Program-made: the position numbers and the translations under genes
Shown: piece after piece, positions 2,224 through 33,118 of the stretch
Layout: each line of letters opens with the position of its first letter
Position numbering within the stretch: position 1 is the first letter of the stretch
The notes under the pieces: model-generated
Told to the model about the DNA's origin: nothing
Databases searched by the model: none
What the model saw: only the letters and a program-made list of their open reading frames with translations
Source: an uncultured Dokdonia sp.
GTDB taxonomy: Bacteria > Bacteroidota > Bacteroidia > Flavobacteriales > Flavobacteriaceae
Direction: 5' to 3'
DNA length: 33,118 nucleotides
Assembly (NCBI RefSeq): GCF_937910895.1
Contig: NZ_CALEMI010000130.1
Span: forward strand, 1-33,118

Positions 2224-4035
2224 ATGGCTGAAAAGTATATAGATGTAGATACATTAAAATATATTCTTTATGATATTCATAATTTAGAAGAGCTTCTTGC
2301 TAGAGATCGCTTTCAAGATCATGATAAAGAATCACTAGATATGTTTATAGATTCAGTTAAAGAGTTTGCTGATAGAGAATTATTTCCTTACGTAAAAGAA
2401 ATGGATGAAAATCCTGCTTATCATAAAGATGGGAAAGTGTTTGTGCATGATCAAGTAAAAACAATGATGTATAAGGGAGGAGAAATGGGCTTAATTTCAG
2501 CGCCATTTAATTATGAAGATGGAGGAATGCAAATTCCTTTCCTTTCACATACTGCTGCTACTTACATCTTAGATGCTGCAAATAATCATTTACCTGGTTA
2601 TGCAGGGTTAACTCAAGGAGCTGCAGAGCTTATTATTCATTTTGCAAATAAGGAACTAAACCAAACCTATGTGCCAAACATGCTTTCTGGACAATGGGGC
2701 GGTACAATGTGTTTAACAGAACCACAAGCTGGAAGTTCTTTGTCAGATATTGTTACAAAGGCAACACCTACCCAAGACGGATATTATAAAATTTCTGGGC
2801 AGAAAATTTTTATTTCAGGAGGAGATAACAATTTCACTGAAAATGTGGTTCATTTAGTACTCGCTAGAATTGAAGGAGCACCAAAAGGAACAAAAGGGAT
2901 TTCTTTATTTGTTGTCCCTAAGAATCGTCCTTCAAGTGATGGAGCATTAGAATTTAACGATGTGACTACTGTCGCAGACTTTCAGAAGATGGGACAACGA
3001 GGCTACTGCACTACTCATTTAGGTTTTGGAGATGCAGACGACTGTAAAGGATGGATTGTAGGTGAACCCAATGAAGGTTTAAAGTACATGTTTTTAATGA
3101 TGAATTCTGCAAGAATTGCAGTAGGAAGAGGAGCTTCTGCTATTGCTTGTGCGGCTTATCATGCTTCTTTACAATACGCAAATGAACGTCCTCAAGGTAG
3201 AAAGTTATCAAGTGACGGTAAGAAAAACCCAGCGGAGAAACAGGCCTTGATCATAGAACACCCAGACGTTAGAAGAATGCTATTGATGCAAAAATCTGTT
3301 GTGGAAGGGTCTATGAGTTTGGTTTTTTTAGCAGCTAAATACTACGATATCATAGAAACTGCTACTTCACCAGAGGAAAAAGAGAAATACAATCTTCTAT
3401 TGGAAATGATTATCCCAATTGTAAAAACATATCCTTCAGAAGCTGGATCTGCTTCTGTAAATAATGGATTACAGGTACTAGGAGGTTATGGTTTCTGTGC
3501 AGATTTTATTTTACAACAATATTACAGAGATATTAGAATATCTGCCTTGTATGAAGGAACAACAGGAATTCAATCTCAAGACTTATTGGGTAGAAAGGTA
3601 ACCATGAGTAACGGTAAAGCATTGCAATTACTTTCTGCTGAAATTATGACAACAATTAAAGCAGCCTCAGCAATAGATGAATTACAATCTTATGCCAATA
3701 CGCTAGGAGCAAAATTAAAACTTACAGAAAAAGTATTGGGTCATTTGATGCCTCATGCAATGAAAGGTGATTACGAACGATATCTTGCTGATGCTTCCAT
3801 TTTTATGGAATTTTTTAGTCTTATAATAATGAGTTGGACATGGTTAGATCTAGGAGTACATGCAACAAAAGCTGCTAAATCTAATGGAACCTATTCAAAA
3901 GACTTCTATGAAAGTAAAATTCATACGATGAAATACTTCTTTACATATGAGTTGCCAAAAACTACAGGATTATCTGAAATTTTATTGAATTCTGAATCCA
4001 TTACCATTAAGAAAGAAACAGAACCTGTAATGTAA
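2224..4035 (+). CDS. Acyl-CoA dehydrogenase, long DmdC-like type with extra C-terminal domain
   Basis: FAD-dependent alpha,beta-dehydrogenation of an acyl-CoA in the cytoplasm. At 603 residues it has the size of the class that includes 3-methylmercaptopropionyl-CoA dehydrogenase DmdC, with about 150 residues beyond the usual ACAD fold. Visible motifs: GGTMCLTEPQAGSSLSD (159-175, flavin and substrate region), GQKIFISGGDNN (192-203), LGGYGF (419-424) and the catalytic loop LYEGTTGIQ, whose Glu444 is the likely base. The N-terminal helix and the C-terminal extension fit this class. DmdC activity itself is not implied, because long-chain and other acyl-CoAs are also substrates in the class. It is the first gene of the operon; its stop overlaps the next start by one base. 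Confidence 0.92.
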   Translation: MAEKYIDVDTLKYILYDIHNLEELLARDRFQDHDKESLDMFIDSVKEFADRELFPYVKEMDENPAYHKDGKVFVHDQVKTMMYKGGEMGLISAPFNYEDGGMQIPFLSHTAATYILDAANNHLPGYAGLTQGAAELIIHFANKELNQTYVPNMLSGQWGGTMCLTEPQAGSSLSDIVTKATPTQDGYYKISGQKIFISGGDNNFTENVVHLVLARIEGAPKGTKGISLFVVPKNRPSSDGALEFNDVTTVADFQKMGQRGYCTTHLGFGDADDCKGWIVGEPNEGLKYMFLMMNSARIAVGRGASAIACAAYHASLQYANERPQGRKLSSDGKKNPAEKQALIIEHPDVRRMLLMQKSVVEGSMSLVFLAAKYYDIIETATSPEEKEKYNLLLEMIIPIVKTYPSEAGSASVNNGLQVLGGYGFCADFILQQYYRDIRISALYEGTTGIQSQDLLGRKVTMSNGKALQLLSAEIMTTIKAASAIDELQSYANTLGAKLKLTEKVLGHLMPHAMKGDYERYLADASIFMEFFSLIIMSWTWLDLGVHATKAAKSNGTYSKDFYESKIHTMKYFFTYELPKTTGLSEILLNSESITIKKETEPVM

Positions 4036-4808
4036 TGAATACACATCAACAATTTAATTTAGAAGGAAAGGTAGCCATCATAACAGGCTCTAGTAAAGGA
4101 ATAGGGAAAGCTATAGCAAAAGGATTGGCTGAAAAAGGGGCACAAGTAGTGATTAGCAGTAGAAGCCAAGACGCTTGTGATGAGGTGGTGAAAGAATTTA
4201 CTGAACTAGGATTAAAGGCCACTGGAATTGCTTGCCATATTGGTAAAGCAGCTCAAAGGAAGGCTTTGGTAGATCAAACAATTAATGATCTAGGTCGCAT
4301 AGATATTTTAGTAAACAATGCTGCTATTAATCCTGTTTTTGGACCTATAGAAGATGTAGACTCTGCAATTTTTGATAAGATTATGGATGTAAATGTAAAA
4401 GCTCCATGGGCATTGTCAAATTTAGTCTTACCCTTCATGCAAGAACACAAAAACGGGAGTATTATAAATATAGCCTCTGTAGAGGCTTTAACCCCTGGGT
4501 TGGGATTAGGATTGTACAGTACAAGTAAAGCTGCTATATTAATGCTAACAAAAAATCAAGCGAAAGAATGGGGGCAATACGGGATAAGGGCTAATGCCAT
4601 TTGTCCAGGATTAATTCAAACAAAATTTAGTGCTGCTTTATGGACTAATGAAAAGCTGTTGCATAAAGTACAAAAAACAATTCCAAGCGGTCGTATGGGG
4701 CAGCCAGAGGAAATGGTTGGTATTGCTGCTTTATTGGCCTCAAATGCAGGTGCATATATGACAGGAGGCGTATACACCGCAGATGGTGGATATATGATCG
4801 CTGGTTAA
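4035..4808 (+). CDS. Short-chain dehydrogenase/reductase (SDR)
   Basis: Classical 257-residue SDR, a cytoplasmic NAD(P)-dependent oxidoreductase. Motifs: TGSSKGIG at 17-24 (cofactor binding), NNAA at 94-97, and the catalytic Ser148, Tyr161 and Lys165 within YSTSK. The residues after beta-strand 2 are SSRS, with Arg43 and no acidic residue, which suggests NADP(H). The C-terminal [10 protein letters not shown] is typical. It starts on the stop codon of the first acyl-CoA dehydrogenase and is followed 14 bases later by the ACAD10/11-like gene, so it is co-transcribed. By analogy with LvaD it could interconvert a 4-keto and a 4-hydroxy acyl-CoA, or act on a 3-hydroxyacyl-CoA; the sequence does not decide. 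Confidence 0.93.
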
Positions 4809-4822
4809 AATTAAATAAACAT

Positions 4823-6040
4823 ATGAACTTCGAATATTCTCAAAAATCAGTAGATCTTCAAAAAAAACTTAGTGATTTCATTGAAAAATACATTGTACCC
4901 GTAGAAGATGAATTTTACGCTTTCCAAAAAGATCCAGAAAATATCTGGACACGTTGGCCTAAAATAGAAGAATTAAAACAAAAAGCTAAGGCTGTAGGGT
5001 TATGGAATCTTTTTTTACCTAAAGATTATGGAAATTTAAGCCCGGGTCTAACAAACTTGGAATATGCTCCTTTAGCAGGAATTATGGGAAAACGTATTTG
5101 GATTTCAGAAATTTTTAATTGTTCTGCGCCTGATACTGGAAACATGGAAGTATTAGCCAAATACGGAAGTGATTCTCAAAAGAAAGAATGGTTAACTCCT
5201 TTGATGAATGGTGAAATTCGTTCGGCATTTTTAATGACTGAGCCAGAAGTAGCCTCTTCAGATGCTACAAATATTGAAACTTCTATCGTTTTAGATGGAG
5301 ATCATTATGTGATTAATGGAAGGAAGTGGTGGTCTAGTGGAGGTATGGACCCCCATTGTAAAGTAGCCATAGTGATGGGAAAAACAGATCCAACTGCACA
5401 TCGCCATCAACAACAGAGTATGGTATTGGTTCCTTTAGATACTCCTGGTCTAAACATTATTAGACCGTTATCTGTTTTGGGATTTTATGATTCACCAGAG
5501 GGTCATGCAGAAATTGAATTAAACAATGTTCGTGTTCCTAAAGAAAATTTAATTTTAGGTGAAGGGAGAGGATTTGAAATTGCTCAAGGACGTCTTGGGC
5601 CTGGAAGAATTCACCATTGTATGAGACTTGTAGGTATGGCTCAGTATGCACTAGAACTGATGTCTAAAAGAACCTTGGAGCGTGAAGCTTTTGGTAAGAA
5701 GTTTTATGATTTTAGTAGTATTCGTCAAGAAATTGCCATTTCAAAATGTGAAATTGAACAGGCCCGCTTACTTACCCTTTCAGCCGCTGATAAAATGGAT
5801 AAATTAGGCAATAAAGAAGCAAAAGACATCATCGCAATGATAAAAATTGTTGCTCCAGATATGGCTTTAAAAGTAATTGACAGAGCTATTCAAATTTTAG
5901 GAGGAAAAGGTGTTGGTCCCGACACACATTTGGCACATTATTTTGCAATTGCAAGGATGTTGCGTTTGGCAGATGGCCCAGATGAAGTACATATGTATCA
6001 GTTAGGGAAAAGTGTCATTCGATCTTACGGAAAATTATAA
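4823..6040 (+). CDS. Acyl-CoA dehydrogenase of ACAD10/ACAD11 (LvaC-like) type
   Basis: 405 residues with the full ACAD fold: [16 protein letters not shown] (135-150), GRKWWSSGG (167-175), [11 protein letters not shown] and ILGGKGVG. Near the C-terminus the loop that reads YEGTxQIQ in ordinary ACADs reads DGPDEVH (384-390), so the catalytic Glu position is Asp384. This loop is the form I associate with the ACAD10/11 branch. In that branch the enzyme works on 4-phospho-acyl-CoA made by a partner kinase, giving an enoyl-CoA in 4-hydroxyacid breakdown (LvaC in Pseudomonas putida). The kinase gene starts two bases after this stop, matching the fused kinase-ACAD layout of mammalian ACAD11. Substrate range is inferred. 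Confidence 0.9.
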
Positions 6041-6042
6041 CT

Positions 6043-7101
6043 ATGTCTAATCAAGAAGTTCGAAAAGGGGAGGAGTTACCAGAAAAAAATCTCAAAGAGT
6101 TTTTACACCAACATCATTTGATTAATTCGCTTCAAAGTGAATTATTTGTCAAGCAGTTTACACATGGCTATTCTAATTTAACCTATTTAATATCTTTAGA
6201 GGATAAGGAATATGTGCTACGTAAGCCTCCAGTTGGAGCTATTAAACGTGGCCATGACATGAGTAGAGAGTTTAAAGTACAAACTTCAGTAAAAAAAGAG
6301 TTTTCTAAAGTCCCAAAGATGTTTGCGTATTCAAATGATGAGGCTATCCTTGGAAGTGAATTCTACATCATGGAAAAAGTAGATGGAATTATTCTAAACT
6401 TTAAAGAAGCTAAACATAGAGCCATCCCAGTAAATGATTATAAAACCATTGCTAATACGTGGTTAGATACCTTTACAGAGCTACATACACTAGATTATAA
6501 TTCGGTTGGGTTGTCTGATTTAGGAAAGCCAGAAGGTTATGTAAATAGACAAGTAACCAATTGGGGAAAACAATACCTAAAAGCAGCAACACAAGATGTT
6601 CCTGCTGCTCTTGAAGTTATGCAATGGATGCAAGAACATCAACCAAAAACCTATCAACATTGTTTAATACATAATGACTACAAATATGACAATGTAGTAT
6701 TTAAAGATACTTCTTGGAAAGATATTACTGCTGTTTTAGATTGGGAAATGGCTACACTAGGTGACCCATTAATGGACTTAGGAACATCACTTGGGTATTG
6801 GACGTTGGCATCAGATCATGATTTTGTAAAGCAAGGAATTCCTTCTCCAACAATTTTTGAAGGGAACCCAATTAGAAGTGAAATAGTAGCTTCTTATTCA
6901 AATAAATCTGGAAGAGATATTCATAATATCGTATTTTATTATGCCTTTGGCTTGTTTAAAATAGCGGTGATAGCTCAGCAAATATATTACAGATATAGTA
7001 AGGGGTTAACCTCAGATCCTCGTTTTGCTCATCTAGATAAAGCTGCAGAATTATGCTGTAATTTAGCGTTAAAATCTATAAAAACGAATTCCATAGATTA
7101 G
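6043..7101 (+). CDS. APH-fold phosphotransferase, ACAD10/11 kinase-domain or LvaA-like
   Basis: 352-residue kinase of the aminoglycoside phosphotransferase fold. Motifs: GYSNLTYLI (42-50, nucleotide loop), YVLRKPP (57-63), the catalytic loop HNDYKYDN (210-217, base Asp212) and the metal-binding DWEMATLGDP (233-242). The pattern NDYKxDN plus DWE-TLGDP is characteristic of the kinase domain joined to ACAD10/11 and of LvaA, which phosphorylates the 4-hydroxyl of 4-hydroxyacyl-CoA, rather than of drug-resistance kinases. It lies between the ACAD10/11-like gene (2-base gap) and a small DUF1330-like gene (2-base gap). An antibiotic-modifying role is unlikely in this setting. The exact hydroxyacyl-CoA is unknown. 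Confidence 0.88.
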   Translation: MSNQEVRKGEELPEKNLKEFLHQHHLINSLQSELFVKQFTHGYSNLTYLISLEDKEYVLRKPPVGAIKRGHDMSREFKVQTSVKKEFSKVPKMFAYSNDEAILGSEFYIMEKVDGIILNFKEAKHRAIPVNDYKTIANTWLDTFTELHTLDYNSVGLSDLGKPEGYVNRQVTNWGKQYLKAATQDVPAALEVMQWMQEHQPKTYQHCLIHNDYKYDNVVFKDTSWKDITAVLDWEMATLGDPLMDLGTSLGYWTLASDHDFVKQGIPSPTIFEGNPIRSEIVASYSNKSGRDIHNIVFYYAFGLFKIAVIAQQIYYRYSKGLTSDPRFAHLDKAAELCCNLALKSIKTNSID

Positions 7102-7103
7102 TA

Positions 7104-7478
7104 ATGATTGAGCAAATAAATCAACAAAATAGTTTAAAAAAATTACAAGATTTTCCTGATGGACAACCTGTTTTTATGCTCAATTATTTGAATTATAAAG
7201 AAATAGTTACAGAAACAGGAAAAACGGGTAAAGAAACATATGCAGATTATTTAAGGGCAGCAGTTCCTTTTTTTAAAACTTTAGACGCGGAGATTATTTT
7301 TAAAGGATCACCGATTGCCACTATTATAGGGCCTTCAGAAGAGTCTCTTTGGGATGAGGTACTTATTGTGCGATATGCCAACAAAAATGAGTTTATGAAA
7401 TTAATGGCAATGAAAGATTATCCCAGAGATCTTAGGTCTTTAGCATTGTCTGATTCTCGATTAATTTTTTGCAAATAA
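7104..7478 (+). CDS. DUF1330-like small protein
   Basis: 124-residue cytoplasmic protein without signal peptide. The body resembles the DUF1330 (ferredoxin-like, dimeric alpha/beta barrel) family: FMLNYLNYK at the start of the domain, YADYLRAAVPFF, AEIIFKGSPIATIIGP, then VLIVRYANKNEFMKLM, DYPRDLR and a final DSRLIFCK. Biochemical function of this family is not established. The start is two bases after the kinase stop, so the two are probably translated together. In Pseudomonas putida the kinase LvaA needs a small partner, LvaB, encoded next to it; this gene holds the same position, but I cannot show homology from the sequence alone. Confidence 0.72.
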   Translation: MIEQINQQNSLKKLQDFPDGQPVFMLNYLNYKEIVTETGKTGKETYADYLRAAVPFFKTLDAEIIFKGSPIATIIGPSEESLWDEVLIVRYANKNEFMKLMAMKDYPRDLRSLALSDSRLIFCK

Positions 7479-7549
7479 TTTTTTAAATAAAATAAATACT
7501 CCTCTAGAGTGTTAAATTAATAGTCATCTAAACAAACAAATCAAGTTAT

Positions 7550-8302
7550 ATGGAAGTAAAAAATAAAATAGTAATAGTAACAGGAGCTGGTTCAGGAATT
7601 GGAAAAGCAGCGGCAATTCATTTTGCTAGTCATGGGGCAAAAGTAGTTGTTTCTGATATTAATTTTAATAGTGCAAAAAAAGTAGCAGATCAAATTGTAA
7701 CAAATGGAGGCGAATCGCTACCTATTAAAACAGATGTTACTAAGTTTAAAGAGGTAGAAGATTTAGTAAACCAAACCTTAAGTAGCTTTGAAAAATTAGA
7801 TGTTATAGTAAACAATGCAGGAATTGGTCCTAATTTACTTCCAACACATAAAGCTAGATTAGAAGATTGGGATAGGGTAATTTCTGTGAATCAAACTGGA
7901 GTTTTTTATTGTATGAAAGTAGCTTTGCAACAATTTTTAAAACAAGGACATGGTAATATTGTTAATATTGCCTCTTTGGCTGGTTTGAAAGCTTCTCCAA
8001 ATAATATCAGCTATAGTGCTAGTAAATTTGCTGTGGTAGGTATGACTAAATCTGCGGCTATGGAATATGCGACAAAAAACATTAGAATTAATGCTGTTTG
8101 TCCAGGATATACAGAGTCTGCTTTATTAGATCAGTTAATTAACGCAAAACCTGAAATGGATGCCATTCTAAAGAGTGTTATTCCTATGAAGCGTTACGGA
8201 AAAGCTAGTGAAATTGCAGATGCAATAGTTTGGTTAGCTTCCGATCAAACAAAATTTATAACGGGTCAAACCATTACGTTAGACGGAGGAACATCCTTAT
8301 AG
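7550..8302 (+). CDS. Short-chain dehydrogenase/reductase (SDR), NAD-type
   Basis: 250-residue classical SDR. TGAGSGIG at 11-18, NNAG at 88-91 and the catalytic Ser142, Tyr155 and Lys159 (YSASK) are all present. Asp36 after beta-strand 2 (VVVSDINF) suggests NAD(H) preference, in contrast to the first SDR of the operon. The C-terminus GQTITLDGGTSL is standard. It lies 71 bases after the DUF1330-like gene, a wider gap than elsewhere in the operon. I see no convincing promoter or terminator in that gap, so I include it as the last operon gene. A 3-hydroxyacyl-CoA or secondary-alcohol dehydrogenase role is plausible; no more specific call is justified. Confidence 0.92.
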   Translation: MEVKNKIVIVTGAGSGIGKAAAIHFASHGAKVVVSDINFNSAKKVADQIVTNGGESLPIKTDVTKFKEVEDLVNQTLSSFEKLDVIVNNAGIGPNLLPTHKARLEDWDRVISVNQTGVFYCMKVALQQFLKQGHGNIVNIASLAGLKASPNNISYSASKFAVVGMTKSAAMEYATKNIRINAVCPGYTESALLDQLINAKPEMDAILKSVIPMKRYGKASEIADAIVWLASDQTKFITGQTITLDGGTSL

Positions 8303-8339: not shown

Positions 8340-8945
8340 ATGAAAAAGTGGCTTCCATTAATAATTATAGTTGTAATCCTATATGTAGGATACAGTTGGG
8401 CTAAAGGAATTAACAATACTGCAGTTGTAAATCAAGAAGATGCAAAAGCTGCATGGTCTAATGTAGAAAGTGCTTATCAACGAAGAAATGATTTGATAGG
8501 GAACCTAGTAAAAACAGTACAAGGTGCTGCAGATTTTGAAAAATCAACGTTAACTGAAGTTGTGAATGCTAGAGCTAAAGCTACCTCTACAACCATTAAT
8601 GCAGGGAATTTGACGGGCGCTAGTTTAGCTCAGTTTCAACAAGCTCAGTCTGGCTTATCAAGTGCATTATCAAAACTACTAGTAGTAGTTGAGAAATATC
8701 CTGATTTAAAATCAAATCAAAACTTTTTAGAATTACAAAATCAATTAGAGGGTACAGAAAATCGGATTAAAATGGAAAGAGATCGGTTTAACGGAAAAGT
8801 AAATCAATATAATAAACATATTAAAGTTTTTCCAAACAGTCTTTTAGCAGGTGTATTTGGTTTTGAAGGAATGGACTTGTATTCTTCTTCACCTGGCTCA
8901 GAAAATGCAGTAGAAGTAAACTTCGATTTTAATAATAAAGAGTAA
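8340..8945 (+). CDS. lemA: LemA-family membrane protein
   Basis: 201 residues with an N-terminal membrane anchor (MKKWLPLIIIVVILYVGYSW) and a mostly helical domain. Family landmarks are AAWSNVESAYQRRNDLIGNL, VVNARAKAT, a heptad-rich helix, and ENRIKMERDRFN with NKHIKVFPNSLLAG near the C-terminus. LemA proteins form membrane-attached helical bundles; their biochemical role is unclear. The stop overlaps the first TPM gene by one base, and LemA-TPM-TPM is a recurrent gene cluster. The 37-base gap after the SDR contains no clear promoter, so the trio may be read through from upstream or use a promoter inside the SDR gene. Confidence 0.93.
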   Translation: MKKWLPLIIIVVILYVGYSWAKGINNTAVVNQEDAKAAWSNVESAYQRRNDLIGNLVKTVQGAADFEKSTLTEVVNARAKATSTTINAGNLTGASLAQFQQAQSGLSSALSKLLVVVEKYPDLKSNQNFLELQNQLEGTENRIKMERDRFNGKVNQYNKHIKVFPNSLLAGVFGFEGMDLYSSSPGSENAVEVNFDFNNKE

Positions 8946-10196: not shown

Positions 10197-11747
10197 TTAA
10201 GAGCTACACGATAGCATCGAGCAACCTACCTTATGTCTTGCCCATTCTGGTCTTTTAGCAAACCAGTGTTCAAATTCGGGTTGTTCTTCGTAAGGTTTTT
10301 TTAGGACTTGATACAATTCTTCAATTAGAGAAAAGTCATCCTTTTCGGCCATATCAATGGCCATTTGAGCCATATAATTTCGAAGTATATATTTAGGATT
10401 TTTAGTTTTCATGAGTTGTTCACGTTCCTCACATGATATGGTTTCCTTTTCCAATCGTTTTGCATATTCAGAAAACCACTGTTGCCAATTGTTTAAAAGA
10501 TCGTCATGTATTTCATCTATATTATAAAAAGCATTTTCTACCAATTTAATTCCTTGTTCAGGAAATTCTTTTTTAAAATCACTCAACTTTCTGAAGAAAA
10601 TTGTCATATCTGTTTCGGATGCCTCTAGATTTTTTTCTAAAGACTCAATTAATAATAAATCATTTTTTTTAGCTAAGTTTAATCCTAACTTTGAGCGCAT
10701 CATATGTATTGACTCTGTCTTAAAATCTAGTTGATATCTTTCTAGAATTTCTTCCAAAGGGGGCGCTTCATCAATTAAAGGATACAGTGCATTGGCTAAT
10801 TGATATAGGTTCCATAATCCAATAGTCGGCTGGTTTCCATAGCGATATCTTTTGTGCTTCTTGTCAGTGGTATTTGGTGTCCATCCAAGATCAAAACCTT
10901 CAAGCCATCCATAAGGTCCATAATCAATAGTAAGACCTAGTATAGACATATTATCTGTATTCATCACTCCATGAACAAAACCTACTCGTTGCCAATGAAT
11001 GATCATTTCTAAGGTCTTGTTAGTTACTTCTTGAAAGAATTTTAGGTACACTTCTTTGCATGGATTACCTAAATGAGAAAAATGATGAAGGATGGTGTAG
11101 TCTGTTAATATTTTTAAATTTTTAAGATCATTTCTAGCAGCAAATAGTTCAAAATTACCAAAGCGTAAAAAAGACTTGGCAACTCTAGAAACAATAGCAC
11201 CCTTTTCATAAGCTGAGTTTCCGTTGTACATTACATCTCTTAACACTTGGTCTCCAGTTAAACTTAGAGACAATGCTCTTGTAGTGGGAACTCCAAGATG
11301 ATGCATGGCTTCACTACATAAATATTCTCTAATCGAAGATCGCAGCACTGCCAATCCGTCTGCTGTTCTAGAATAGGGTGTTGGACCAGCTCCTTTGAGT
11401 TGTAATGCCCAATTTTTAATTTCTCCTAAGTTTATAGCTCTTCCATCACCTAATTGACCAGCCCAATTCCCAAATTGATGGCCAGCGTAGCACATCGCAA
11501 ACGGTTTTGAATTTTCTATGATGCTGTTGCCAGTCATTACATCTAAAAATTGGTTTGATTGAATGTCTTGATTAGAAAACCCAAGTTCTTTAGACATTTC
11601 ACTAGACACATGAAGTAATCTAGGATTGGACGTTTTAATTGGTTTCACAAAAGAAAAGGCAGCCTCTGTTACTTGGCGTCTAGAATTTTCTTGAATAGGA
11701 TCTCCAGGTAATTGATCAGTAAATTTATTTGTAATATTTAGTTTCAG
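10197..11747 (-). CDS. selO: Protein adenylyltransferase SelO (YdiU), apparently with a non-ATG start
   Basis: SelO is a pseudokinase-fold enzyme that transfers AMP to proteins. Motifs: YAGHQFGNWAGQLGDGRAIN, LKGAGPTPYSRTADG, VLRSSIREYLCSEAM, the HGVMNTDNMS catalytic segment and DYGPYGW. The protein ends in CSS, where the first Cys matches the place of selenocysteine in eukaryotic SelO. A GTG at 11648 is the first standard start, but it would drop the conserved N-terminus. In-frame sequence upstream encodes NITNKFTDQLPGDPIQENSR and RRQVTEAAFSFV, highly typical of SelO. The frame back to the msrA stop has no ATG, GTG or TTG; CTG at 11747 or ATT at 11750 are the best candidates. Coordinates use the CTG, giving 516 residues. 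Confidence 0.88.
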   Translation of the reverse strand: MKLNITNKFTDQLPGDPIQENSRRQVTEAAFSFVKPIKTSNPRLLHVSSEMSKELGFSNQDIQSNQFLDVMTGNSIIENSKPFAMCYAGHQFGNWAGQLGDGRAINLGEIKNWALQLKGAGPTPYSRTADGLAVLRSSIREYLCSEAMHHLGVPTTRALSLSLTGDQVLRDVMYNGNSAYEKGAIVSRVAKSFLRFGNFELFAARNDLKNLKILTDYTILHHFSHLGNPCKEVYLKFFQEVTNKTLEMIIHWQRVGFVHGVMNTDNMSILGLTIDYGPYGWLEGFDLGWTPNTTDKKHKRYRYGNQPTIGLWNLYQLANALYPLIDEAPPLEEILERYQLDFKTESIHMMRSKLGLNLAKKNDLLLIESLEKNLEASETDMTIFFRKLSDFKKEFPEQGIKLVENAFYNIDEIHDDLLNNWQQWFSEYAKRLEKETISCEEREQLMKTKNPKYILRNYMAQMAIDMAEKDDFSLIEELYQVLKKPYEEQPEFEHWFAKRPEWARHKVGCSMLSCSS

Positions 11748-11759
11748 AATGTAATTTAT

Positions 11760-12296
11760 TTAATCTATTAACTTATCTGCATGCATTGTTCTTAGTTTTT
11801 GCAATTTTGGATTGATTACAAAAGAACAATAGCCAGAATTTTGATTGTTTTTATAATAGGCTTGGTGTTCTTTTTCTGCCTCATAGAAGATTGATAAAGG
11901 ACTAATTTCAGTCACTATTTTTTCATTATAAACAGGAGTTAACGCATTAATGACAGTTTGTGCAATTTCTTCTTGTTGTTCATTATGATAATAAATAACA
12001 GAACGGTATTGTGTCCCAACATCTGCTCCTTGCCGATTTAGTTGAGTTGGATCGTGCGTAGTCATGAAGATAATTAAAATAGACTCATAAGAAATGATGT
12101 TTTCATCATAGGTAACTTGAATTACTTCTGCATGCCCAGTTAATCCGGAGCAAATTTCTCTGTATGTTGGTTTACCAGGAGCATTCCCACCACTATATCC
12201 AGAAATAACTTTTTTAATCCCTTTTACTTCTAAAAAGACGGCTTCTGTACACCAAAAACATCCACCACCAAAAGTTGCTTGTTGTAAATTATTCAT
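11760..12296 (-). CDS. msrA: Peptide-methionine (S)-S-oxide reductase MsrA
   Basis: Reduces the S epimer of methionine sulfoxide in proteins, using thioredoxin. The 178-residue protein carries the signature FGGGCFWCTEAVF with catalytic Cys13, and YSGG and HAEV substrate-site motifs (GHAEVIQVTYD). DPTQLNRQGADVGTQYRS is typical of the family, and GYCSF near the C-terminus supplies a probable resolving cysteine. No signal peptide, so cytoplasmic. It overlaps the end of msrB by eight bases, and its stop codon is just upstream of the selO coding frame. The three form a minus-strand redox-repair operon. Confidence 0.96.
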   Translation of the reverse strand: MNNLQQATFGGGCFWCTEAVFLEVKGIKKVISGYSGGNAPGKPTYREICSGLTGHAEVIQVTYDENIISYESILIIFMTTHDPTQLNRQGADVGTQYRSVIYYHNEQQEEIAQTVINALTPVYNEKIVTEISPLSIFYEAEKEHQAYYKNNQNSGYCSFVINPKLQKLRTMHADKLID

Positions 12297-12741
12297 CTGT
12301 TTTCTTCAATTTTATAGAGGCAGAATTTACGCAATATCGTAATCCACTTGGCTCAGGGCCATCAGGGAATACATGCCCGAGGTGACTATCACACGTATTG
12401 CACAGAACTTCTATTCTTATCATTCCATAAGAATCATCTTTTATATACTGGATGGCATTTTCTTCAATAGGCTGCGTAAAGCTTGGCCAACCAGAACTTG
12501 AATCAAACTTAATAGTAGAATCAAATAAGTTGGTATTACAACAAATACATTGGTAGATTCCTCCTTCAAAAATAGAACAAAGAGATCCAGTATGAGGCCT
12601 TTCGGTTCCGTGTAATCTGCTAATTTGAAATTGCTCTGGTGTTAATATTGTACGCCACTCTTCTTCAGTTTTTTCAACTCTTTTATGTGGTGTAGGGTTT
12701 CCATTCACCGAAAAGTGAATGACATCTCTCCATGTGATCAT
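12289..12741 (-). CDS. msrB: Peptide-methionine (R)-S-oxide reductase MsrB
   Basis: Reduces the R epimer of methionine sulfoxide. In 150 residues it has the zinc site (Cys65 and Cys68 in CICC; Cys114 and Cys117 in CNTC), SGWPSF at 83-88, HLGHVFPDGP and the catalytic RYCVNSAS with Cys137. Cys55 in TGSLCS may be the resolving cysteine. No export signal is seen. The gene leads the msrB-msrA-selO operon, and a promoter-like TTG-N19-TATTTTTA lies just before it. Pairing separate MsrA and MsrB lets both epimers be repaired; nothing is missing or truncated. Confidence 0.96.
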   Translation of the reverse strand: MITWRDVIHFSVNGNPTPHKRVEKTEEEWRTILTPEQFQISRLHGTERPHTGSLCSIFEGGIYQCICCNTNLFDSTIKFDSSSGWPSFTQPIEENAIQYIKDDSYGMIRIEVLCNTCDSHLGHVFPDGPEPSGLRYCVNSASIKLKKTDE

Positions 12742-15812: not shown

Positions 15813-15851
15813 AAGATCTCCATGATAGATCGATGTAAATATACCAACTTT

Positions 15852-17366
15852 ATGCCTATCCCTTTAGTACATTCTATTGCCTCTTGGTTTTTAAAAAAAC
15901 GCATCCATCAAATGGAGCTTTTTTTAAAATATCCTCATGAGGTACAGAACGAATTACTACATCAACTTATAGATAAAGCAAAGGGTACAGAAATCGGTAG
16001 GGAATATGGATTTCACGAGTTAAAAAACTATGAGCAGTTTGCGGCACGTCTTCCTATATCTTCTTATGAAGATGTACAACCTCATATAGAACGTAGCCGA
16101 AAAGGAGAAAATAATATTTTATGGCCTACACCTATTAAATGGTTTGCTCAAAGTAGCGGTACCACCAATGCAAGAAGCAAGTATATTCCTGTAAGTACAG
16201 AATCTCTTGAAAATTGTCACTATGCAGCGAGTAAAGACTTGTTATGTATGTACCTTAACAATAACCAAAACTCTCAATTATTTTCAGGTAAGGGATTACG
16301 CTTAGGAGGCAGCAAAGAATTGTACGAAAAAAATGGCACTGTTTATGGCGATTTATCTGCTATTTTGATAGACAATATGCCATTTTGGGCAGAAATGAGT
16401 AGTACCCCTAATAGTGATGTTTCACTCATGAGTGATTGGGAAGTAAAAATGCAGGCTATTGTAGATGAAACCATACAAACCAATGTCACAAGCCTAGCCG
16501 GAGTGCCGTCTTGGATGCTAGTTTTGCTAAATAAAGTACTTGAAACTACTGGTAAAAAAGATCTACTTGAGGTGTGGCCTAATTTAGAAGTTTATTTTCA
16601 TGGAGGCGTGAGCTTTGAACCTTATTTAGATCAATACAAACACATACTCCCAAAGGATTCTTTTAAATACTACGAAATTTATAATGCATCAGAAGGCTTC
16701 TTTGCTATTCAAGATCAAAATGACAGTAAAGACCTTTTATTAATGCTAGACTATGGTATTTTTTATGAGTTTATACCTATGGATGCTTATGGTACTCCTG
16801 AACAAAAGATTATTCCGCTATCCGAAGTAGAGATGCATAAAAACTATGCGGTTGTTATTACGACAAATGCTGGTTTATGGCGTTATAAGATAGGAGACAC
16901 CGTACGCTTCACTTCTATGAGTCCTTATCGCATACGGGTAAGCGGTCGCACAAAGCATCATATTAATGTTTTTGGAGAGGAACTTATTATTGAAAATACA
17001 GATATAGCACTTGGAGTTGCTGCCAAAGAAACTCAAAGCGAAATCAAAGATTACACAGTAGCTCCTATCTTTATGAAAGGAAGAGAAAAAGGAGCTCATG
17101 AATGGATTATAGAATTTAAAAATCCACCTCAAAACCTTAAAGTTTTTAATACTAAACTCGACAATGCACTTCGCGCTGTAAATAGTGATTATGATGCCAA
17201 GCGTTTTAACAATACTACATTAAATGCTCCTCTAGTTCATAGTGCAAGACAAGACTTGTTTTATGATTGGCTTAAAGAAAATAATAAATTAGGAGGTCAA
17301 CATAAAATACCAAGACTCTCCAATAAAAGAGATTTTGTAGATGAGTTATTAAAACTCAATATCTAG
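15852..17366 (+). CDS. GH3-family (auxin-responsive GH3-like) acyl-adenylate enzyme
   Basis: 504 residues from the chosen start. Resembles the GH3 branch of adenylate-forming enzymes: the ATP-loop motif FAQSSGTTNARSKYIPVS, GVPSWMLVLL, HGGVSFEPY, YNASEGFFAIQ, and the hinge region GLWRYKIGDTVRF followed by GRTKHHINVFGEELI. Plant GH3 enzymes join amino acids to acyl acids such as jasmonate and auxin; the role of bacterial members is mostly unknown. I prefer the ATG at 15852 (MPIPLVHSIASWFLKK) over 15822, because it gives the usual flavobacterial N-terminus and leaves room for a promoter. A single gene, divergent from DUF2797. The substrate cannot be read from the sequence. Confidence 0.88.
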   Translation: MPIPLVHSIASWFLKKRIHQMELFLKYPHEVQNELLHQLIDKAKGTEIGREYGFHELKNYEQFAARLPISSYEDVQPHIERSRKGENNILWPTPIKWFAQSSGTTNARSKYIPVSTESLENCHYAASKDLLCMYLNNNQNSQLFSGKGLRLGGSKELYEKNGTVYGDLSAILIDNMPFWAEMSSTPNSDVSLMSDWEVKMQAIVDETIQTNVTSLAGVPSWMLVLLNKVLETTGKKDLLEVWPNLEVYFHGGVSFEPYLDQYKHILPKDSFKYYEIYNASEGFFAIQDQNDSKDLLLMLDYGIFYEFIPMDAYGTPEQKIIPLSEVEMHKNYAVVITTNAGLWRYKIGDTVRFTSMSPYRIRVSGRTKHHINVFGEELIIENTDIALGVAAKETQSEIKDYTVAPIFMKGREKGAHEWIIEFKNPPQNLKVFNTKLDNALRAVNSDYDAKRFNNTTLNAPLVHSARQDLFYDWLKENNKLGGQHKIPRLSNKRDFVDELLKLNI

Positions 17367-30835: not shown

Positions 30836-32900
30836 CTTAATAAATCAAAGCTTGATATTAAAAAAAATTACTTTTGTACTGCTATTATTTACAACTGTAG
30901 TCTCGCAAGCTCAGAGAGATTTACCTCTAGATCCAGAAGTTAAGTATGAGATCGGTAATATCACTGTAACAGGAACCTCTACCTATAACGAAAATACTGT
31001 AATCACATTTACAGGCCTACGTTCTGGAGAACGTATCTATCTTCCTGGAGAAAAAATAAGTAATGTCATAAAAAAATTATGGGCATTAGAATTATTCTCA
31101 GATATTAACCTATATGTTACAGATGTAAGAGGTGATGTCGTTGATCTTCAACTTGATATTAAGGAAGTTCCTGAACTAAATGAAATAAAATTCAAAGGAA
31201 TTAAAGAAAAGAAAGGCAACACTTTTATTAAAGATAATAGCTTAAACAAAGGAGCTAAAGTCACTGAAAACCTTATCACAACTACAAAAAACTACATTGA
31301 AAATACCTACAAGAAAAAAGGATATTACAATGCTAAGACCTTTATAAATGTAATTCCTAAAGAGGATTCTACATCAAAAAATAAGGTGAACCTCGTAGTA
31401 AACATAGACAAAGGCTCTAGAGTAAAAGTAGATGAAATCATATTTGAAGGGAGTGAAAAAATAAAAGCTAAAAAACTTAGACGTGCTATGAAAAACACGA
31501 AGAGAAAAAATCCTCTTCGTTTTTACAAACGCTCCAAATTTATCCGATCTGATTATCAAGATGATAAAAAAGCTATCATAGATAAATATAAAGAGAATGG
31601 ATATAGAGATGCTCGTATTGTATCAGACACCATTATTAAAAATGATGATGATGGTATTACCTTAAAACTTTCTATTGAAGAAGGAAAAAAATACTATATA
31701 GGTGATATTGATTTTATTGGTAACACAGTATACTCTGACGCACAACTTTTAAGACAATTGGTTTTAAAGAAAGGTGATGTCTATAATGGAGTTTTATTAA
31801 AAGAACGTATCCAAAAAGAAGGAGATCCTGATGCAGATGACCTTGCAAACCTTTACCAAAATAGCGGTTATTTATTTTCAAACATTAATGCTGTTGAAAC
31901 TGGCGTCGAAAATGATACTATTAATTTTGAAATTCGAATCTCCGAAGGAAAACTAGCATACTTTAACAGAGTTGAGGTAAAAGGAAATGATAAAACAAAG
32001 GATAAGGTAATTTATAGAGAACTTTTGACAAGACCAGGACAACAGTATAGTAAACAAGCTGTAGTCTCTACGATTCGTCAGCTTGGACAACTCGGATTTT
32101 TCGATCCGCAACAGCTTACTCCTGAATTTAAAAACTTTGATCAAATAGGAGGTACTGTAGATTTAGAATACAATGTTGTAGAGCAGGGAGCTAGTCAGAT
32201 AGAACTACAAGGTGGTTTTGGAGGTGGTGGTTTTGTAGGAACGTTAGGATTATCTTTTAATAATTTCTCTATACAAAACATCTTTAACAAAGAAGCCTAT
32301 AAGCCTTTACCTATGGGAGATGGTCAGCGTTTTTCATTAAGAGCTCAAGCCAGTCAATTTTTCCAGACTTATAGCATCTCACTTACAGACCCTTGGTTTG
32401 GAGGAAAAAAACCAGTACAATTGTCGGTCTCATTATCACATACGATACAATTTCAATTTAACAACAATGCAACTAGTGCAAGGGATCGTGTCAATAGAGA
32501 TAGCAAAAATATTATTACGGGAGGATCTATTGGTCTGGCAAAACGTTTAAACTGGCCTGATCGACTTTTTACATTATCTCATGCTATCAGTTATCAAAAT
32601 TTCAATTTAAAGAATTTTAATACTGGGCTATTTACTTTTGGAAATGGATCTTCTAAAAACTTAGGATATACTATTGGCCTTAGTAGAAATAACACGGCTA
32701 ATAACCCAATATTCCCAGTATCAGGTTCAGAGTGGAGCATTACTGCCAAACTTACGCCACCCTATTCGCTATTTAATAATGTAGATTATAAAGCGTTAGC
32801 AGAAGACAGACTTGTAGCATTAGAAAATCAAGATTCAGATGCGCTTGGAGAAATAGATCAAGAGCGATTTAACTTCTTAGAATTTTACAAAGTAAAATTT
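30819..32900 (+). CDS. bamA: Outer membrane assembly factor BamA, 3' part missing (chimeric join)
   Basis: Core of the machine that inserts beta-barrel proteins into the outer membrane. A signal peptide (KKITFVLLLFTTVVSQAQ) is followed by POTRA domains (YEIGNITVTGTSTYNENTVI onward; KFKGIKEKKG; DIDFIGNTVYSDAQLLRQLV; FNRVEVKGNDKTKDK) and the start of the barrel (QGGFGGGGFVGTLGLSFNNF, TDPWFGGKKPVQLSVSLSHT, RNNTANNPIFPVSGSEWSI). The start is uncertain: GTG 30819 (17-base overlap with uppS), TTG 30852 (clean signal peptide) or ATG 30768 (68-base overlap). After FNFLEFYKVKF at about 32900 the barrel should continue for some 150 or more residues, but an unrelated permease sequence follows in the same frame. 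The gene is truncated here. Confidence 0.9.
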
Positions 32901-33118
32901 AATGGAAGTGATGATGCTAAAAAACTAGAAAAAAGAATTAAAGATATATTTAAAGATGATCAAAAAGTTACAATTAGATATCCTGAAAATTCAGCAAGTG
33001 GATTAAAGAGAATTATTAATAATTTTTCACAGTTTTTATCATTAGTTTCTATTAGTGCGATGCTAATTGCTGGAATTGGAATAGCAAACACTCTTCTTTC
33101 ATTCATCAATCAAAATAA
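32895..33118 (+). pseudogene. Fragment of an FtsX/MacB-like ABC transporter permease fused in frame to bamA
   Basis: From about 32895 the frame reads NGSDDAKKLEKRIKDIF, KVTIRYPENSASGLKRI, then a membrane helix FLSLVSISAMLIAGIGIANT followed by LLSFINQN at the window edge. This pattern, an extracytoplasmic domain ending in a -RxxxNxxQFL- helix with an AGIGIAN turn, is that of FtsX-domain permeases such as YbbP. It is not BamA. It has no start codon of its own, and the reading frame runs off the window without a stop. The join region TACAAAGTAAAATTTAATGG is a low-complexity AT stretch, a likely place for a misjoin. The sequence looks like an AT-rich proteobacterial permease, but that is an impression only. 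Confidence 0.72.

Follow-up and report, generated by a model that had tools for sequence, protein, structure and literature searches.

A probable ACAD10/11-type module encoded as separate kinase and dehydrogenase genes in a flavobacterial operon

Introduction

The function of mammalian ACAD10 and ACAD11 was explained only in 2024-2025: a kinase step at the 4-hydroxyl of a coenzyme A (CoA) ester is followed by a redox-neutral flavin elimination of the phosphate (PMC12440821; PMC11342911, excerpts). Orthologs from B. pseudomallei replaced the ACAD10 domains in vitro, according to excerpts of PMC11342911. In Pseudomonas, the phosphorylation step is the joint work of LvaA and LvaB (PMC9628823 and PMC9399607, excerpts). 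The 12-kDa LvaB acts together with LvaA, deletion of lvaB abolishes growth on levulinate, and lvaABCD homologs are reported in Alpha-, Beta- and Gammaproteobacteria (PMC6692424, excerpts). Here, we describe a six-gene operon in a window of 33,118 bases, the entire contig C130 of a flavobacterial genome (4.8 Mb, 169 contigs), in which an acyl-CoA dehydrogenase (ACAD, P0003) and a kinase with an aminoglycoside phosphotransferase (APH) fold (P0004) are neighboring genes. We consider it highly likely that they form a bacterial module of the ACAD10/11 type, its two domains encoded as separate genes, that acts on 4-hydroxyacyl-CoA.

The operon (2224 to 8302) consists of six co-directional genes on the + strand, to which all features described below belong unless stated otherwise: a 603-residue ACAD (P0001), a short-chain dehydrogenase/reductase (SDR1, P0002), the 405-residue ACAD, the kinase, a 124-residue protein (P0005, hereafter P5) and a second SDR (SDR2, P0006), spaced by -1, 14, 2, 2 and 71 bases. 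A sequence-only reading of positions 4035 to 7478 had described gaps of 1 to 14 bases; this holds inside that segment (14, 2, 2) but not beyond it, where 71 bases precede SDR2 and P0001 overlaps SDR1 by one base. The host is a flavobacterium akin to Polaribacter, the nearest relatives of P0003 being found in metagenome-assembled genomes of Flavobacteriaceae (96-97% identity), followed by further such genomes and by Polaribacter.

Compared with mammalian ACAD11 and ACAD10, the locus has the same ACAD residues (R626, R631, H634, R637 and D753 in the mouse numbering), the same kinase residues (D220, N225 and R176) and the same position in the ACAD tree. It differs in encoding two proteins rather than one fused chain, in a Ser in place of Pro463, and in its operon context of two SDRs, a long ACAD and P5. 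The lva operon of P. putida KT2440, compared by gene content and description, likewise groups a kinase, a small protein, an ACAD and an SDR, whereas a long ACAD and a second SDR are added here and P5 is a candidate for LvaB by position only. No LvaE-type ligase, lvaF, LvaG-type permease or LvaR-type sigma-54 regulator was recognized among the six genes or the flanking genes scanned (part of the window's open reading frames). Proteobacterial kinase-ACAD-SDR-histidine phosphatase clusters, described in P. citronellolis (PMC6692424, excerpts) and seen on Azoarcus, Pseudoalteromonas, Ideonella and Azospirillum plasmids, share the pair and the SDR but carry a histidine phosphatase by the kinase where the operon here has P5.

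The dehydrogenase P0003 groups with ACAD11

P0003 (4823 to 6040) is assigned to the ACAD11 type by its scores against the PDB, its conserved residues and its place in the tree. In a phmmer search it reaches 447 bits against human ACAD11, 443 and 441 bits against mouse ACAD11 and 423 bits against 4hr3, an entry listed merely as a putative ACAD; the next ACAD follows at 139 bits. In the mouse enzyme, R626, H634 and R637 (the HCMR motif) bind the 4-phosphate, as tested by substitution, which disrupts the enzyme, while R631 is given a general role and H597 a helpful one, and D753 is the base that stands in place of the usual Glu (PMC12440821, section 7). A phmmer alignment to 8v3u, whose PDB chain numbering runs one below that of PMC12440821, equates R257 of P0003 with R626, H265 with H634, R268 with R637, R262 with R631, H228 with H597 and D384 with D753. 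The four residues R257, R262, H265 and R268 lie in a phosphate-binding stretch at 5591 to 5626, and D384, the counterpart of the catalytic Asp, lies in the DGPDEVH loop at 5972 to 5992.

These residues are conserved well beyond the host. Related stretches were collected through P0003, the best 80 of 223 being kept, all of them Bacteroidota by title, so that this sample speaks for that phylum only; 11 further loci bring the set to 91, not all independent (L063/L110 and L074/L112 are probably the same contigs). All six equivalents are kept in 91 of 91 Bacteroidota rows. Among the 17 plasmid homologs, those of R626, R631, H634, R637 and D753 are kept without exception and that of H597 in 15. By contrast, a MAFFT alignment of 43 rows shows that the three phosphate ligands and D753 are missing from P0001 and from all three aligned paralogs encoded in this genome, the last position being occupied by Glu in P0001 and two of the paralogs and by Gly in the third (three of the four paralogs were aligned; the fourth, L002, was dropped as having no frame that passed the filter). 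In a midpoint-rooted maximum-likelihood tree built on 20 hand-picked loci of the 91, with only four ordinary ACADs as outgroup, a branch supported at 100/100 holds 39 of the 43 rows, including human ACAD11, apart from the four ordinary ACADs. The sequence-only reading had named clustering with ordinary ACADs as evidence against its own proposal; because P0003 sits on the branch with human ACAD11, that clustering is not what is found.

The kinase P0004 resembles the other half of ACAD11

P0004 (6043 to 7101) is the proposed 4-hydroxyacyl-CoA kinase, in the role of LvaA. Its best PDB match is 9o56 (281 bits), named simply aminoglycoside phosphotransferase, followed by mouse ACAD11 (169 and 166 bits) and 3dxp (157 bits). 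Far below are 9fsg, an ‘aminoglycoside phosphotransferase-like protein’ (40 bits), and the hygromycin-B kinase and APH(2'')-Id (at most 20 bits); against the APH(3') model it scores 25 bits, with a cut-off of 205. The HNDYKYDN catalytic loop (6670 to 6693) contains D212 and N217, equivalent to D220 and N225 of mouse ACAD11, and R169 corresponds to the CoA-binding R176. The DWEMATLGDP motif (6739 to 6768) contains D233, which corresponds to the metal-binding Asp of the family. R75-E76 fits the description of R86 beside the alpha-C glutamate, although the numbering offset derived from the remaining residues would make the mouse Arg at this place number 84. D212, N217, R169, R75, E76, H210 and D233 are invariant in mouse ACAD11, in all 83 Bacteroidota kinases with frames longer than 300 residues and in all 14 plasmid kinases. 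On these scores and residues, P0004 is a predicted kinase of the ACAD11 kind, far from the resistance kinases. The ACAD10/11-type kinase of the sequence-only reading is thus supported, and the three motifs that it had pointed to (DGPDEVH, HNDYKYDN and DWEMATLGDP) are all present.

Conservation of the operon

Gene content around P0003 was compared in those 66 of the 80 loci whose flanks extend 3.5 kb or more to either side of the ACAD (well-flanked loci). In 59 of these, the long ACAD, SDR1, the ACAD11-type gene, the kinase and SDR2 occur together, and P5 is detectable in 44; the kinase lies at most 1.5 kb from the ACAD in 61. SDR1 is present in 76 of the 80 loci, and 14 of the 17 plasmid ACAD loci contain a kinase. 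Five of the six operon genes have dN/dS values of 0.02-0.15 against relatives with estimable dS (L033 is saturated for four of the six genes, and the value of 1.26 for P5 against L030, at a dS of 0.013, is treated as uninformative). With the same order of genes seen again in dozens of loci from Bacteroidota, and with dN/dS low in five of the six genes, the operon is not a chance arrangement. A consensus scan for internal promoters and terminators was uninformative (27 promoter-like matches with 25.3 expected, 3 terminator-like with 2.9 expected).

The window's neighbors recur in 32 of the 91 loci, as alaS (by eye), an M23 peptidase gene or merR before the operon, or lemA and TPM genes after it, and both flanks are shared in 15. 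Given these common flanking genes, the operon occupies one chromosomal site in the Polaribacter-type group. Its wider spread is patchy: among 149 genomes of Flavobacteriaceae, 12 carry the ACAD at an E value no higher than 1e-100, and among 392 of Bacteroidota, 12 carry it at no higher than 1e-90, four of these at 43-45% identity; this genome is included in both counts. The plasmid rows nearest to P0003 in the ACAD tree come from Sulfitobacter and Sphingomonas JE1 (100/100), and their kinases are 30-32% identical to P0004. In the kinase tree, also midpoint-rooted and built on P0004 and the loci of 13 of the 83 kinases (the genome's only two other APH-family frames being left out), the rows nearest to P0004 are from Gemmatirosa, Azospirillum, Pseudoalteromonas and Ideonella (100/99).

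Several observations weigh against assigning the pair to the ACAD10/11 type with 4-hydroxyacyl-CoA as substrate. The nearest neighbors differ between the two trees, so kinase and ACAD seem, as far as the trees indicate, to have exchanged partners, and substrates could have shifted in the process. For the ACAD tree, the program warned that very long branches (the ordinary ACADs and a Paraburkholderia row) may be joined falsely. The ACAD occurs without a nearby kinase in five of the 66 well-flanked loci (L095, L101, L102, L103 and L107) and, by annotation, in three plasmid loci. Finally, Pro463 is described in excerpts of PMC11342911 as highly conserved in ACAD10/11, where it opens the pocket. 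The human Pro463 position corresponds to Ser95 in P0003. Ser occupies this column in 88 of the 91 rows from Bacteroidota, and Pro occupies it in 2 of the 17 from plasmids, so the pocket of P0003 may differ. This mapping is our own count on the 2wbi chain and assumes a human protein length of 780 residues. As 15 of the 17 plasmid homologs also lack the Pro, the residue may mark the animal enzymes rather than the whole family.

Accompanying genes

The long ACAD P0001 (2224 to 4035, 603 residues) is an ordinary FadE/DmdC-like enzyme. It carries the Pfam ACAD N, M and 1 domains together with Acyl-CoA_dh_C, keeps the usual catalytic Glu, and matches 8pns (331 bits), 6ijc, a DmdC (307 bits), and FadE5 (240 bits) best in the PDB. 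A long DmdC-like ACAD had been described from the sequence alone as an addition to the module; it is indeed there, though like SDR2 it lies outside positions 4035 to 7478. SDR1 (4035 to 4808) is a DHRS4-like carbonyl reductase, its best PDB matches both being DHRS4 (3o4r, 207 bits; 2zat, 204 bits), and is proposed to act as the 4-oxoacyl-CoA reductase, the role of LvaD. SDR2 (7550 to 8302) is FabG/MFE-2-like and a proposed 3-hydroxyacyl-CoA dehydrogenase; its best PDB match is the (3R)-hydroxyacyl-CoA dehydrogenase 2et6 (211 bits), followed by SDR reductases such as 5x8h (202 bits) and 2uvd.

P5 (7104 to 7478) adjoins the kinase and is DUF1330-like, of the dimeric alpha-beta-barrel type. It has no Pfam match up to an E value of 10, and hence no DUF1330 gathering score, but phmmer matches it to RPA0582 (3dca) at 1.9e-8. 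An AlphaFold2 model (mean predicted local distance difference test score 92.7; 34 of the 54 operon copies used) retrieves 3dca with Foldseek at an E value of 4.8e-10, a template modeling score of 0.80 and 28% identity, followed by other ferredoxin-like proteins. The sequence and fold matches support a distant relationship of P5 to DUF1330 proteins. In the model, P5 shares the fold of the DUF1330-type RPA0582 but differs from it in lacking a Pfam match and in standing beside the ACAD in all six genomes with strong matches. These six are among the 12 Flavobacteriaceae genomes with the ACAD, and each match lies 1.1-1.2 kb from it; in eight other genomes the matches are no better than weak (E 1e-7 to 1e-10). 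Of 18 plasmid records with a tblastn match to P5, 12 carry a DUF1330 annotation, and none covers at least 80% of the query in one place. Because it is not detected in many relatives, P5 appears to be accessory, perhaps as a helper of the kinase or as an enzyme for some side product.

Extended and variant operons

Operons of Aquimarina, Spongiivirga and their relatives continue past the core with genes for an enone reductase, a PIG3-type quinone reductase, a FabG-like SDR and a MaoC hydratase. Often these longer operons also encode an enoyl-CoA hydratase, a Crp-type regulator (so named by eye) ahead of the core and, between kinase and P5, a transglutaminase-like protein. Counted in the 80 loci at an E value of 1e-8, a few of the matches being weak, the extra genes are CurA-like (35 loci), MaoC (35), FabG-like SDR (34), quinone reductase (34), Crp-type regulator (33), transglutaminase-like (24), hydratase (19) and AMP-binding ligase (5, four of them only 29-30% identical to the query from L104). 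Among the 11 additional loci, four have an AMP-binding ligase at 62-67% identity. The enone reductase falls below the cut-offs of both the NCBIfam CurA model (388 bits, cut-off 440) and the leukotriene B4 dehydrogenase/15-oxo-prostaglandin reductase model (239 bits, cut-off 580); its best PDB match is 4b7c, with prostaglandin and 2-alkenal reductases lower in the list.

The transglutaminase-like protein (PF01841) stands after the kinase in L061 (10364 to 10999) and likewise in 23 other loci with Aquimarina-type operons. A carboxyl-transferase with a biotin domain (typed in L104) is found near the ACAD11-type gene in four Saprospiraceae and Lewinella loci (L104, L099, L101 and L102), and this neighbor may mean a coupled acyl-CoA carboxylase step. 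A histidine phosphatase gene adjoins the kinase in L118-L120, and L100 (Saprospiraceae) carries both a histidine phosphatase and P5. Plasmid loci with a histidine phosphatase by the kinase are L123, L130, L136 and L139 by annotation, L134 by a match to that of L100, and L131 by eye. A proteobacterial kinase-small open reading frame-ACAD arrangement, which would provide a candidate LvaB, was sought in the plasmid loci; none was recognized, the histidine phosphatases standing by the kinase instead.

Proposed pathway and alternative readings

What the sequences show is the family of the kinase and of the ACAD, the active-site residues of both and the conservation of the operon. As each of the two proteins corresponds to one half of mammalian ACAD11, the cell very probably burns 4-hydroxylated fatty acids through this operon. 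In the proposed route, the DHRS4-like SDR1 would reduce 4-oxoacyl-CoA to 4-hydroxyacyl-CoA, and P0004, by analogy with ACAD10/11, would transfer phosphate from ATP to the 4-hydroxyl of this ester rather than to that of the free acid. P0003 would then expel the phosphate to yield 2-enoyl-CoA, with R257, H265 and R268 holding the phosphate and D384 as the base; its flavin would be reduced and reoxidized within the cycle, with no external acceptor and no net oxidation. Hydration, SDR2 as 3-hydroxyacyl-CoA dehydrogenase, the long ACAD P0001 and thiolases encoded elsewhere could complete beta-oxidation. Enoyl-CoA hydratase, thiolase and ACAD genes stand together on contig C71 of the same genome.

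The CoA ester could be made by a ligase whose gene lies outside the operon, or arise when longer hydroxy acids are shortened. The sequence-only reading had observed, correctly, that no acyl-CoA ligase is present in the operon: there is no AMP-binding ligase among the six genes. It took this, together with the long ACAD, as a hint of a different substrate, with lactones, lipid peroxidation products and algal oxylipins as possible candidates; the missing ligase alone does not point to a new substrate. Two AMP-binding ligases, each in its own frame and matching nearly the whole model, are encoded elsewhere in the genome, and an lvaE deletion of P. putida retains growth on levulinate (PMC6692424, excerpts), so the operon itself need not encode one. 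As for the substrate, the beta-oxidation ACAD in the operon suggests chains longer than C5, while the PTGR/CurA-type enone reductases in the operons of relatives argue weakly for oxidized lipids over levulinate.

A related view holds that the operon serves detoxification and salvage of lipid-peroxidation products or algal oxylipins, with 4-hydroxy- or 4-oxo-2-enals and enoates being reduced, converted to 4-hydroxyacyl-CoA and passed to the kinase and ACAD; we regard this as possible, if on the whole unlikely. It would account for the PTGR/CurA-type enone reductase, PIG3-type quinone reductase, MaoC and FabG-like SDR added in Aquimarina-type operons and for the resemblance of SDR1 to DHRS4, and it fits relatives such as Polaribacter, Aquimarina and Tenacibaculum, which are marine genera. 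However, a search of this genome for a CurA-like gene, run without a positive control, gave none, which also counts against oxidized lipids as the substrate in general. None of the six operon genes encodes an aldehyde dehydrogenase, and CurA-type reductases have wide substrate ranges.

It is improbable that the locus is a levulinate operon proper, with SDR1, kinase and ACAD acting as LvaD, LvaA and LvaC on C5 levulinate and P5 as LvaB. Four like functions do stand side by side, and the 124-residue P5 adjoins the kinase much as the 12-kDa LvaB partners LvaA (PMC6692424, excerpts). Yet the operon and the scanned neighbors hold no LvaR-type regulator, LvaG-kind permease or ligase, and the beta-oxidation ACAD, together with the MaoC, enoyl-CoA hydratase and enone reductase genes of relatives, fits longer chains. 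Moreover, P5 is not detected in 22 of the 66 well-flanked loci, whereas an lvaB deletion mutant cannot grow on levulinate (PMC6692424, excerpts). Lastly, an ordinary beta-oxidation ACAD standing by chance beside an aminoglycoside-type resistance kinase, as the generic Pfam assignments (APH and ACAD) and the name of 9o56 might suggest, is extremely improbable: the phosphate-binding residues, D384, PDB scores and tree position reject P0003 as an ordinary straight-chain ACAD, and the 169 bits to ACAD11 against low APH scores reject P0004 as an aminoglycoside kinase.

Genomic surroundings

In the window, neither Rfam at its gathering threshold nor a tRNA scan gave a match. A few kb from the operon, a SelO protein adenylyltransferase is encoded on the - strand beside MsrA- and MsrB-type methionine sulfoxide reductases (10197 to 12741), a small cluster with the look of oxidative stress. 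A GH3-family adenylate-forming protein is encoded at 15822 to 17366 (PF03321, E 8.9e-63); this family is best known for plant hormone conjugation. At the contig end, a BamA-like frame (POTRA and partial Omp85 by Pfam) has a tail (about 32800 to 33118) that by eye resembles an ATP-binding cassette transporter permease, possibly from a wrong join. The tail has no permease match in Pfam, and bases 32700 to 33118 have no second copy in the genome. lemA lies near the ACAD11-type gene both in the window (8340 to 8945) and on a Sulfitobacter plasmid (L006, 7342 to 9799), with different partners and strand, probably by coincidence. On contig C52 of the same genome (about 75.6-150.8 kb), a stretch with 21 of the 25 genomic AMP-binding matches and frames of up to 4214 residues looks like a giant nonribosomal peptide synthetase cluster.

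Implications

The chemistry and the gene pair are already known from Pseudomonas and mammals. Among the open-licence PMC literature matches listed, none reports the module in Bacteroidota, and P5 and the enone-reductase variant are the parts worth following. Doubtful, and offered tentatively, is the fuller proposal of a dedicated marine Bacteroidota route for those oxidized fatty acids, 4-hydroxylated or 4-oxo, that derive from algal oxylipins or lipid peroxides; it would be built on a split ACAD11, and a DUF1330-like protein, as a new kind of helper or phosphate-ester handler, would replace LvaB or the histidine phosphatase.

The split, operon-encoded homologs of flavobacteria such as Polaribacter and Aquimarina offer separate proteins for studying an unusual redox-neutral flavin chemistry. 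From the gene neighborhood, candidate enzymes for the steps before and after the core reaction can be named as well, along with a small accessory protein. Should the proposed substrates prove right, the breakdown of 4-hydroxy acids known from mammals would be linked to the turnover of oxidized algal lipids in the sea.

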